DNA of 46,710 nucleotides from a virus. The notes beneath the pieces were generated by a model, which ran no database searches, was not told the DNA's origin, and was given only the letters and a program-made list of their open reading frames with translations. Shown one piece after another: positions 1-46,700 of the stretch. The translations under genes were made by a program, and so were the position numbers. The stretch spans positions 1 through 46,710 of the IMG/VR virus record IMGVR_UViG_3300035211_000110. One strand, 5' to 3'. Within the stretch, counting starts at the first letter, position 1, and every line of letters starts with the position of its first letter.

Positions 1-126
1 GAAGGGTTTGCGCTTGACGTCATCCGCAAAGCCACCGAATAACCAAGAGGGAGCAGGAGGGGGGACCGGGACCATCAACCGGACTGGGACCGATCCCCCT
101 CCACCACCTCTTTCGCTTTCACAATG
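1..126. repeat. Terminal direct repeat, left copy
   Basis: Bases 1-126 are identical to 46575-46700. Bases 127-137 match the last ten bases of the window except for one missing C. Bases 1-43 are therefore the last codons of the small gene at 46326-46616. The simplest reading is a circular or terminally redundant phage genome assembled with an overlap; a true short direct terminal repeat is also possible. Confidence 0.95.
56..102. terminator. Possible bidirectional terminator stem
   Basis: GGAGGGGGG at 56-64 can pair with TCCCCCTCC at 94-102, nine pairs with the innermost a wobble, around a loop of about 29 bases. It lies where the rightward gene ending at base 43 meets the leftward gene ending at 75. 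No T-tract follows, so a classical intrinsic terminator is not proven. Confidence 0.3.
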
Positions 127-902: not shown

Positions 903-1108
903 TTCAATTGTGCATTCAAGGCGTGGGCTACCATGTGAGCCCTGTGCAGGTAGCATCTGTCCTGGAAAGGTGGGGATGTAAGCCCCACCACCCCTTCACG
1001 CCTGATGAGCATAAAGGCGAAACCGTCAACAGTTGGCGGTAGCGCGGAGTGGATACAGCCGGGGAATAACTGTCCACCAGGGGCTCACGCCTTGAATGCA
1101 CAATTGAA
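903..1108 (+). ncRNA. Structured RNA closed by a perfect 26-bp helix
   Basis: Bases 903-928 are the reverse complement of 1083-1108, 26 continuous pairs with one G-T wobble. Inside are a hairpin at 927-954 (GCTACC with GGTAGC; its first two bases overlap the closing stem, so one of them gives way), a helix CCTGG 961-965 with CCAGG 1077-1081, a hairpin 969-975 with 983-989, a hammerhead core (991-1052) and a hairpin 1051-1053 plus 1056-1058 with 1070-1075. No reading frame covers it. It lies 60 bases before the first rightward gene after the control region, so it may be that transcript's 5' leader. I do not recognise it as a named RNA class. An inverted-repeat mobile element is an alternative, but no flanking target-site duplication is evident. 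Confidence 0.75.
991..1052 (+). ncRNA. Hammerhead ribozyme, type I topology
   Basis: The invariant core is present in order. CTGATGA (1002-1008) is followed by a short stem II (G1009-C1018, C1010-G1017), then GAAA (1019-1022) and stem III pairing 1022-1029 with 1033-1040, including the required A15.1-U16.1 pair. A1041 is the cleavage-site H17. Stem I pairs 999-1001 with 1042-1044 and, after a mismatch, 994-997 with 1046-1049. Predicted self-cleavage is between 1041 and 1042. Stems II and III are closed hairpins and the motif opens through stem I. Stem II is only two pairs, so activity may rely on loop contacts with the stem I internal loop. Confidence 0.7.
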
Positions 1109-11139: not shown

Positions 11140-13292
11140 TTGCCATACGCCCTCTCCCATTCCCCCCGGACCCGTCCCAATACCTCCTGGCCCCGGACCA
11201 AATCACGGTAGGGGACTATCTGGATGGCATATGCCAATCCCCATCCACCATTGCCATCGACACGGAAGACGGCCCCGGAGATACTTTATGGTCCATCCAG
11301 GTCAGCGGACTCCCCGGATCGGCCATCCTGATCCCCACCGAACGGGAGTTATCTGTCAAACGCCTTGTGGCATACATTACACTCCACAACCCCCTGGTCA
11401 TTCTCCACTCTGCCCTGCATGACCTGCCCAAACTCCAATCCCTGGGCATCCACCCCACCCGTCTCCATGACACCATGGTCATGGCCTACCTCCTCCAGGA
11501 CGAACCCCTGGGCCTGAAATCCCTGGCCCTGCGCCACGCCAATATCAAGATGCGGTCCTACATGGACGTGGTGGGGGATGAACGCAAACGAGTGGCCCTG
11601 GAGTACCTTTCCTTTGTGTCGGCCATGGCGTGGCCCAAGCCGGAACCGGTGCTGGAATACCGTAAGGGGGTCCCCCACCTGAAACAGCCTCAGGATGTGG
11701 GGAAGAAAGCCAGGGGGATCGTCCGGGACGTGGAGAAGGGTAAGGTGTTGAAGGACGGCCCAGTGGAGGCCAGGAAGCGGTGGGGGCAGATCAAGGAGGA
11801 GGAGGGGCGGGGAATGGTGGAGGACATCCTTGGCCCCATGCCCGACGCCTACCTCCAGGATGTGGACCCGGACGAAGCCAGGGAGTATGCGTGTGCAGAC
11901 GCGGACATGACCCTTCGGGTGTACCACACTCTCTTGGGTCGAATGCAGTCCCTCGACATGACCCCCCTTCTGGATGTGGAGTGGGGAGTGATCCAGTTCG
12001 TGTCATGGATGATCACGGGGGGGATGCCCGCCAGCCGGGAACGGTTCGCCCGGATGTCCGATGAACTGCGTCAGGGGATGGAGGAGATCGAACGGGAGAT
12101 CACGGTGATGACCGGGTTCGATGGCCAGCTCACCTCTCACGATCAAGTCTCCCACCTCCTCTACGACACCCTGGGCCTCCGTCAATACCTTCCCAAAAAG
12201 CGCACCAAGAAAATGGGCAAGACCATGACCGGGGATGATGTCCTGGCCCAGATCGAACACCGCCATCCCGTGATCCCCCTCATCCGCCGACACCGCAAGC
12301 TGGCCAAACTGGACTCCACCTATGCCTGTGGGGTGCCCCGGCACATCCGCTCCGATGGCCGCCTCCACCCGGACTTCCGAAACACCAACACGGACACGGG
12401 GAGGCTGTCGTGCGCCGACCCGAACCTGATGGCCCAGCCCAAACGGGATAAGAAATGGGCTAAGAAATTGCGGCAGGGGTTTGTGGTCCCGGACGGGTAT
12501 GCCATCGTCTCCATGGATTATTCCCAGATCGAGTTGCGAATGCTGGCCGAGGAGGCGGACGAACAGTCCATGATACGGGCATTCCGGGAGAATCTGGACA
12601 TCCACTCACTCACGGCACTGGAAACCACGCGAATGTTGCCTACATGGGAGATGGACACGGAGGAAGTGAGGGAGCTAATCGACACGGTGGACAAATTGAC
12701 GGAGCGCCTCCCGTCCAAGAACACAAATTTCGGGATTGTATACGGCATTACGCCGGAGGGGTTGTGCAGATTGATGGTGAAGGCCCTATCCCAAGTAGGA
12801 TCGGATAAGGTGGGAGAATGGACAGACGATTTTGCCACGGAATACATTAGGAAATATTTTGAGCGACGACCGGGGATCAAGACCTACGTGCAGGACACGG
12901 TGTCCATGGCCCGGCGGCATGGGTATGTGTGGGACTGGTCCGGGAGGATCAGGCGGATACCAGGGGCCAGGCTGAAAAACGAGTACAAGAGATCGGAGGC
13001 CGAGCGCCAGGCGTGTAATGCACGAATCCAGATGGGGGCGCAATCGGTAATCAAAAAGGCCATGGCGGACCTGGTGCCGGTGTATCAGGGGTGGAGGGAC
13101 CAAGGGTGGGACTTGTGGCCCGCCATTCAAATCCACGACGACATCGTATCGTTTGTCCCGTTGGATCTGGTGGATGTCCTTGTCCCGGTGCAGAAGGAAA
13201 TCATGGAGGGGGCCAAACAGTTGAAGTCCGGGGTGAGGGTGGATGTGGAATGGAGCCTGACATCGTGGGGGGAAATGGAGGATTGGGTATGA
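11136..13292 (+). CDS. polA-like: DNA polymerase, family A
   Basis: 718 residues. 3'-5' exonuclease motifs: AIDTEDG near 42, HSALHDL near 91-97 and YACADADMT near 250. Polymerase motif A SMDYSQIELR is near 458, motif B KNTNFGIVYG near 527, and motif C QIHDDIV near 664. All catalytic residues are present (D in A; H, D, D in C). A pool-rich insert at about 160-235 separates Exo II from Exo III and is Lys/Glu-rich. This is the main replicative polymerase of T7-like and related phages. ATGA overlaps link it to the genes on both sides. Confidence 0.95.
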   Translation: MIAIRPLPFPPDPSQYLLAPDQITVGDYLDGICQSPSTIAIDTEDGPGDTLWSIQVSGLPGSAILIPTERELSVKRLVAYITLHNPLVILHSALHDLPKLQSLGIHPTRLHDTMVMAYLLQDEPLGLKSLALRHANIKMRSYMDVVGDERKRVALEYLSFVSAMAWPKPEPVLEYRKGVPHLKQPQDVGKKARGIVRDVEKGKVLKDGPVEARKRWGQIKEEEGRGMVEDILGPMPDAYLQDVDPDEAREYACADADMTLRVYHTLLGRMQSLDMTPLLDVEWGVIQFVSWMITGGMPASRERFARMSDELRQGMEEIEREITVMTGFDGQLTSHDQVSHLLYDTLGLRQYLPKKRTKKMGKTMTGDDVLAQIEHRHPVIPLIRRHRKLAKLDSTYACGVPRHIRSDGRLHPDFRNTNTDTGRLSCADPNLMAQPKRDKKWAKKLRQGFVVPDGYAIVSMDYSQIELRMLAEEADEQSMIRAFRENLDIHSLTALETTRMLPTWEMDTEEVRELIDTVDKLTERLPSKNTNFGIVYGITPEGLCRLMVKALSQVGSDKVGEWTDDFATEYIRKYFERRPGIKTYVQDTVSMARRHGYVWDWSGRIRRIPGARLKNEYKRSEAERQACNARIQMGAQSVIKKAMADLVPVYQGWRDQGWDLWPAIQIHDDIVSFVPLDLVDVLVPVQKEIMEGAKQLKSGVRVDVEWSLTSWGEMEDWV

Positions 13293-46325: not shown

Positions 46326-46616
46326 ATGGAAGGGAAATACACACCGGGACCATGGGCAACAACGACATTAAAAATAAGCAGAAACAAGTTCCAAACGTCG
46401 GTTATGGCTGGAGACGACCATATCTGCAAAATTGGGCAAGAAAACACAGATGCCAATGCCAAGCTAATCGCCGCAGCACCGGATCTGCTGGAAGCCTTGC
46501 GAGATTGTCAACAGGTGTTGTTTGAGTATATTTTCGGAGACGAGACACCGGAAATGTGCTGTTTTGCCGAGGCAGAAGGGTTTGCGCTTGACGTCATCCG
46601 CAAAGCCACCGAATAA
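46326..46616 (+). CDS. Small conserved phage protein (YTPGPW type)
   Basis: 96 residues from ATG 46326. The opening YTPGPW followed by a strand region and a NAKLIAAAPDLLEALRDC helix is a layout common in small phage proteins of unknown role. Its last 14 codons are also present at the left end of the window because the contig ends overlap. Confidence 0.75.
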   Translation: MEGKYTPGPWATTTLKISRNKFQTSVMAGDDHICKIGQENTDANAKLIAAAPDLLEALRDCQQVLFEYIFGDETPEMCCFAEAEGFALDVIRKATE

Positions 46617-46700
46617 CCAAGAGGGAGCAGGAGGGGGGACCGGGACCATCAACCGGACTGGGACCGATCCCCCTCCACCACCTCTTTCGCTTTCACAATG
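46575..46700. repeat. Terminal direct repeat, right copy
   Basis: Identical to bases 1-126. After it the window reads ACATTACATT where the left copy reads CACATTACATT, a single-base difference inside the dispersed motif. Confidence 0.95.

Follow-up and report, generated by a model that had tools for sequence, protein, structure and literature searches.

Thousands of hammerhead ribozymes have been found in phages, and the question of their purpose there dates from then. It is raised again by a noncoding gap near one end of IMG/VR record IMGVR_UViG_3300035211_000110, where an initial annotation had placed a hammerhead inside a long closed RNA (positions 903-1108) at the start of the early genes: is the ribozyme real, to what kind of RNA does it belong, and does this RNA serve the genes beside it? 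The window, by which we mean the whole stretch of DNA analysed, comprises the 46,710 bases of the record. The RNA is flanked by ORF 75-560 on the minus strand and by an ORF on the plus strand whose start is at 1169; downstream on the plus strand there is a helicase gene, followed at a greater distance by genes for a uracil-DNA glycosylase-like protein and a family A DNA polymerase. An identical direct repeat of 126 nt at the record ends (window 1-126 and 46575-46700) suggests a complete phage genome assembled with an overlap. The gap that holds the RNA also contains iteron-like GATACC / GTGATACC repeat units at about 620-715, possibly a replication origin or operator. A Pfam scan of 20 window proteins showed no reverse transcriptase gene, the partner of a retron msr-msd.

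In the letters of the window the hammerhead occupies 999-1044 on the plus strand, and the core elements reported in the initial annotation stand in the order and at the coordinates required, CUGAUGA at 1002-1008, GAAA at 1019-1022, and U1040-A1041 before a cut site at 1041^1042. The features of the whole RNA, including those recognised by comparison with its relatives, are as follows.

903-920, plus strand: 5' strand of P1, the outer closing helix; 18 bp with 1091-1108
921-926, plus strand: conserved X1-C-G-U-K-G, where X1 is G921 and K is G925; K925 pairs with M (C1070)
927-954, plus strand: hairpin a, GCUACC (927-932) with GGUAGC (949-954), covarying; its loop holds the 5' strand of b
934-943, plus strand: 5' strand of pseudoknot b, UGUGAGCCCU; pairs with 1080-1089, 10 bp in the window
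955-960, plus strand: AUCUGU (AUCUGG in most copies), recognised by conservation
961-965, plus strand: 5' strand of helix A, CCUGG; pairs with CCGGG 1059-1063, covarying
969-989, plus strand: peripheral hairpin GGUGGGG/CCCCACC between helix A and the hammerhead
994-1001, plus strand: 5' strand of hammerhead stem I; 999-1001 pair with 1042-1044 (3 bp)
1002-1008, plus strand: hammerhead core CUGAUGA, from the sequence and from comparison of homologues
1009-1018, plus strand: hammerhead stem-loop II, 2 bp (G1009-C1018, C1010-G1017), loop II AUAAAG
1019-1022, plus strand: hammerhead core GAAA, present in 33/33 copies
1022-1040, plus strand: hammerhead stem-loop III, 8 bp with one G-U pair (1022-1029 with 1033-1040)
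1041-1042, plus strand: cleavage site A1041^G1042 (H17 / X2) after U1040-A1041, predicted by sequence comparison
1042-1050, plus strand: conserved X2-C-G-Y-G-G-A-G-U, predicted 5' end of the 3' cleavage product and also 3' strand of stem I
1049-1053, plus strand: 5' strand of helix B, GUGGA; pairs with 1073-1077 and crosses helix A (pseudoknot), covarying
1059-1063, plus strand: 3' strand of helix A, CCGGG, covarying
1064-1070, plus strand: conserved GAAUAA plus M (C1070), the partner of K925, from conservation and covariation
1073-1077, plus strand: 3' strand of helix B, UCCAC; pairs with 1049-1053
1080-1089, plus strand: 3' strand of pseudoknot b, GGGGCUCACG; overlaps the inner part of the 26-bp helix
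1091-1108, plus strand: 3' strand of P1; pairs with 903-920

Taken alone, the motif is suggestive and not decisive, since chance alone should give about 0.006-0.036 descriptor matches of comparable quality per window; the homologues decide. Stem I could be extended beyond a mismatch by 4 bp, 994-997 with 1046-1049, in competition with helix B at 1049. The thermodynamic ensemble gives a competing hairpin, CGCCU/AGGCG, a probability of about 0.65, and stem II one of 0.016, and the fold constrained to the hammerhead lies only 1.9 kcal/mol above the minimum; the same hairpin is possible in the closest relative, L071. A stem II of 2 bp is common among natural hammerheads, and both this and a mismatch at 10.1-11.1 have precedents in type I (PMC3088659). 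The check with Rfam hammerhead models that had been proposed gave no detection: at gathering and permissive thresholds the region had no hammerhead or other credible match, a match to ops/JUMPstart at 1007-1046 (E 7.2) being taken as chance, and the RF00163 model run on the whole record gave none. A second CTGATGA at window 33569 on the minus strand, with GAAA within 40 nt, lies inside an ORF and failed the stem tests; it is probably a chance match.

Relatives were sought through the sequence, through the neighbouring genes and through motifs. The exact window sequence had no match in viral contigs, the next gene led to no relatives directly, and the DNA polymerase led to two distant contigs, the RNA being absent from both. 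Alignment of the helicase gave 20 loci with no hammerhead by descriptor. One of these, L023, carries on the other strand a hammerhead-free form of the conserved RNA that surrounds the hammerhead, hereafter the scaffold; L023/L171 is a relative of the window phage, with the gene at 1169, the helicase and more in common, and its scaffold lies on the opposite strand between the homologue of gene 1169 and the helicase. An inverted repeat in L013 (1552-1792) was rejected, as it forms a long helix but has no motif in common with the window RNA. Three motif scans of viral contigs were more productive. Scan 1, with the pattern CTGATGAGC-N5-8-GCGAAAC, gave 80 loci, many of them typical hammerheads; L071 matched the window across the whole RNA, and L042, L054, L063 and L072 had flanking motifs in common with it outside the hammerhead. 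Scan 2 used the flanking motif CWGNYNGKGAATAAMTGKNNACC only, with no hammerhead letters, and returned 76 stretches; CTGANGA stood no more than 110 nt upstream at 58 of 79 places, and most of the remaining places retained the flanking RNA and had the hammerhead missing. Scan 3, written for the hammerhead-free form, gave 11 stretches. Altogether 48 standard-order copies were parsed, 46 of them distinct. Because hammerhead letters fetched some of the loci and CUGANGA was used to class the copies, conservation of CUGANGA is not independent evidence; GAAA, U16.1-H17 and the stems played no part in the scaffold-based selection.

An intact hammerhead was found in 33 of the 46 distinct copies, the window among them. 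In these, CUGANGA, GAAA and U16.1-H17 follow in order; GAAA is invariant (33/33), as are U16.1 and H17 (33/33; H17 is C in 24 and A in 9), and the cleavage site always lies directly before X2. The pair N1.1-N2.1 follows X2 (G-C in 15 copies, C-G in 13, A-U in 5), stem III covaries with several pair types, and stem II ranges from 2 to 6 bp. Stems II and III are closed and stem I opens into the larger fold, as had been read from the window, with covariation behind the stems. Changes in the core bases of homologues had been named as a sign against a ribozyme; these bases are fixed while the stems covary. By this comparative evidence the hammerhead at 999-1044 is confirmed, and its domain is by sequence an ordinary member of type I. 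The other 13 copies retain the scaffold and have no intact hammerhead. In L161 one base is inserted inside CUGANGA, in L170 an unrelated hairpin occupies the place of the hammerhead, and in Mycobacterium phage Gaia (L223, 2480-2640, beside tRNA-Ser) an intact scaffold surrounds a decayed core, GUUGAUAA, which makes this phage a natural inactive control. The hammerhead-free copies show that the scaffold can do its job, whatever this may be, with no cutting.

The elements of the scaffold follow in the order X1-CGUKG, a5, loop with b5, a3, AUCUGG, A5, hammerhead or 2-4 nt, X2-CGYGGA, B5, A3, GAAUAA, M, B3, ACC, b3. Near-exceptionless covariation over the 46 distinct copies marks the helices a, A and B, each of 6 bp, the pseudoknot b between loop and tail, and a single Watson-Crick pair, K-M. 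Five positions of helix a and five of helix A are paired in 46/46 copies, as are all six of helix B; variable positions of the three helices show 2-5 pair types, helix a having up to five. The K-M pair is likewise present in 46/46 (G-C in 34, U-A in 12). Helix b has a mean of 8.0 bp, and when the tails were swapped among copies the mean fell to 4.8 with a maximum of 5.2 (60 exchanges). Covariation is thus shown to support the predicted scaffold helices as well as the hammerhead. Since A crosses B and a crosses b, the RNA contains two pseudoknots, which would interlock: hairpin a with the loop-tail helix b, and A crossed by B, the two being tied together by K-M and by the identity of X1 and X2. 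The scaffold may be regarded as two halves, S1 from X1 to helix A and S2 from X2 to b'. X1 equals X2 in 44/46 copies, against a mean of 17.7 and a maximum of 28 in 2,000 shuffles that ignore kinship among the copies. Two tandem copies in L202 (minus strand, 2598 and 2770, 172 nt apart) have different X (C/C in one, T/T in the other), each self-consistent, and a parse that mixes them breaks the identity, as expected. An origin of the identity in a hammerhead-to-X1 strand swap was ruled out, as hammerhead-free copies retain it, and it stands as a clean structural puzzle.

This architecture modifies the outer part of the fold as first proposed. The 226-nt region is far more stable than dinucleotide shuffles (MFE -100.7 kcal/mol, z -6.6). 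The arms 903-928 and 1083-1108, described in the initial annotation as a perfect 26-bp sealing helix, do pair over 26 bp with one G-U; their inner 8-9 bp, on the other hand, compete with conserved pseudoknot b (934-943/1080-1089) for 1080-1090. Because of this conflict P1 is taken as 18 bp (903-920/1091-1108), and the 26-bp helix is partly an alternative fold. The nested conserved helices of the window amount to -70.5 kcal/mol and the duplexes b and B add about -17.8 and -5.4, an energy sum for the conserved fold near the pseudoknot-free minimum of about -100 kcal/mol. Two wobble pairs were checked, one in stem III and one in the arms, and both are G-U on the plus strand. P1 itself is peripheral, as in other copies it varies in length or is absent.

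In several distinct copies the two halves occur in the permuted order S2-connector-S1, with the P1 side closed by a loop. Such copies are found in lambdoid prophages of E. coli, where 15 of 5,426 complete genomes have one, in Enterobacter phage SDFMU_EhYP and in contigs including L174, L176, L185 and L210, the connector of L210 having only a few bases past b. They retain helices a, A, B and b, K-M and X1=X2, with one mismatch in A in a few rows, and their ends fall in the linker corresponding to 969-989. It follows from the permuted copies that the two halves start at equivalent X-C-G motifs and can be joined in either order. One permuted copy, at 3001-3211 of L229 (prophage of E. coli EC6622), lies unannotated between the antiterminator Q and holin genes.

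The named phages with the scaffold infect Mycobacterium, Arthrobacter, Microcystis, Enterobacter, Pectobacterium and E. coli. Comparison of the copies shows that the hammerhead is optional, that the RNA occurs in circularly permuted form and that it recurs in unrelated phages. No consistent neighbouring gene was found across them. The neighbours include tRNAs, integrase, terminase, portal and lysis genes, helicase and methyltransferase, and lambdoid copies sit between antiterminator Q and holin; a strict scan found downstream terminators in 1/63, and strand bias relative to neighbouring ORFs is weak (naive ORF table). The absence of a constant neighbour speaks against an element that regulates the early block in cis, and the suggested role in maturing or regulating specifically the early transcript is not supported.

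We consider it likely that the window RNA is a hammerhead-nicked, two-piece member of an apparently undescribed phage RNA family, whose product acts in trans. A type I hammerhead would lie between S1 and S2 with its cleavage site exactly at the first base of S2 and would cut at 1041^1042 during transcription, so that S1 would end in a 2',3'-cyclic phosphate and S2 would begin with a 5'-hydroxyl at X2. The halves would then be held as a two-piece RNA by A, b and P1; the earlier idea that the cut pieces stay together fits these helices, which would bridge the cut. The product would be a stable RNA acting in trans, as the variable gene context suggests, and not a regulator of the adjacent early genes.

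Alternatively, the RNA could serve transcript processing, as a cutter and end-protector between genes (phage tRNAs or operons) whose structured ends resist nucleases. Several copies are wedged closely between tRNA genes or follow one directly on its 3' side (L160 with tRNA-Gly, L204 with tRNA-Leu, and the Mycobacterium phages Gaia and phiGD24-3 with tRNA-Ser), the copies of Gaia and Microcystis phage Mwe-JY26 adjoin annotated tRNAs, X1 follows directly after tRNA N73-C in L204, L223 and L228, and theta ribozymes of phages offer a tRNA-associated precedent (PMC10879173). However, a predicted tRNA lies within some 300 nt of only about 13/64 copies, roughly a fifth; the tightly tRNA-flanked L160, L173, L204 and L227 have no hammerhead; and in the standard order the cut falls inside the scaffold, not between genes, so that the transcript pieces stay bridged. 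We regard this role as unlikely. It is also only tentatively, as an unlikely reading, that the scaffold may be seen as a new phage RNA class with an activity of its own, ligand binding or catalysis at the two identical X-C-G sites, to which the hammerhead was added as a regulated internal cutter, making a natural allosteric ribozyme; if so, X1 and X2 would meet in a conserved contact between like bases, across the pseudo-two-fold axis of an RNA that can be circularly permuted.

Unlikely, too, is a switch in which scaffold and hammerhead compete for X2-C-G-Y-G-G, so that cutting reports scaffold folding as in a natural allosteric hammerhead, the formed scaffold core (perhaps bound to a ligand, protein or RNA) disturbing stem I, or the reverse. 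X2CG is part of stem I and yet tied to X1 by identity, also in all 13 hammerhead-negative copies, the extension of stem I (994-997/1046-1049) overlaps helix B at 1049 in the window, and the junction nucleotides are strongly conserved, like those of ligand-binding RNAs; but both contacts could coexist if X1-X2 uses no Watson-Crick edges, and no downstream gene is conserved that would hint at a ligand. It is very improbable that the RNA is nothing more than a structured leader, its hammerhead match being due to chance or decay: the descriptor rate, the thermodynamically favoured hairpin and the missing Rfam match would allow it, but 33 distinct copies have an invariant core with covarying stems around it, and their cleavage site keeps a fixed place within the scaffold. 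Finally, the inverted repeat hardly acts as DNA, for instance as an origin cruciform or transposon end, for although it adjoins the GATACC repeats in the 560-1169 gap beside replication genes, it has conserved loops, pseudoknots and a ribozyme core, its outer helix is the least conserved part (missing or loop-closed elsewhere), and its G-U pairs favour plus-strand RNA.

Whatever its mode of action, the family ties a phage hammerhead to a defined, strongly conserved RNA partner across many phages, some of them with laboratory hosts, and comes with natural controls, namely hammerhead-free, decayed-core (Gaia), swapped-halves and tandem copies, so that the purpose of phage hammerheads becomes directly testable. 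It also lengthens the short list of natural circularly permuted RNAs. The initial annotation knew of no named class with this architecture, and this was upheld, as homologues have the hammerhead inside a larger closed RNA and no Rfam 15 family matched the scaffold at gathering score or E up to 1. Only tRNAs, a weak HH9 match, which fell on one hammerhead, and a weak miRNA match, taken as chance, were returned. No published description of the scaffold was found in the open-access literature, subscription papers and supplements being outside the scope of the search, so an earlier description is possible. Apparently the novelty lies in the scaffold that hosts the hammerhead, and no described RNA family was matched; the two interlocked pseudoknots, the optional hammerhead and the permuted form go beyond the first reading.

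The helix order of the HDV ribozyme is P1-P2-P3-P1'-P4-P2'. An HDV-like or theta fold was rejected, as the scaffold order a-b-a'-A-B-A'-B'-b' differs from it and the cutter is a hammerhead, and cmscan of five scaffold loci listed nothing of HDV type up to an E of 1. Theta ribozymes, which are HDV-like, resemble the present RNA in being phage-encoded, often beside tRNA genes, and knotted and self-cleaving (PMC10879173). With Hammerhead_1 (RF00163) type I ribozymes (PMC3088659) the window RNA shares CUGANGA/GAAA/UH, the type I stem order, closed stems II and III and open stem I; unlike them, its stem I continues into a conserved RNA with two pseudoknots, its hammerhead is an optional module of that RNA, and it falls below Rfam thresholds. 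Type-SGC hammerheads and HRIMA-1 (PMC10085705) likewise combine a hammerhead core with pseudoknots in metagenomic sequences and share the theme of permutation, but their core is rearranged non-circularly, whereas the core of the window has the ordinary type I order, the scaffold pseudoknots lie outside the core and exist without it, and it is the scaffold that is permuted. Permuted two-piece tmRNA, cited in PMC10085705, is also a structured RNA with permuted gene order whose two pieces are held by pairing; it differs from the scaffold, in which no tRNA-like domain or tag frame was recognised and which would be cut by an internal ribozyme. The stable RNAs C and D of phage T4 (rnaC, rnaD) are similar in being structured phage RNAs of unassigned role that lie next to a tRNA cluster. 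Homology to them was rejected, as AUCUGG, GGAGU...GAAUAA and GAAUAAMUG are never combined in the T4 tRNA region, where single short matches lie outside rnaC/rnaD. Apart from this family, hammerheads in L097 (minus strand, near 11843) and L107 (near 5834) have a different common flank, GCTCC-CAGT-CCGGTAGAGTT-GGAGCCCA ... CTTAGGCCC, possibly that of a second hammerhead-bearing structured RNA.
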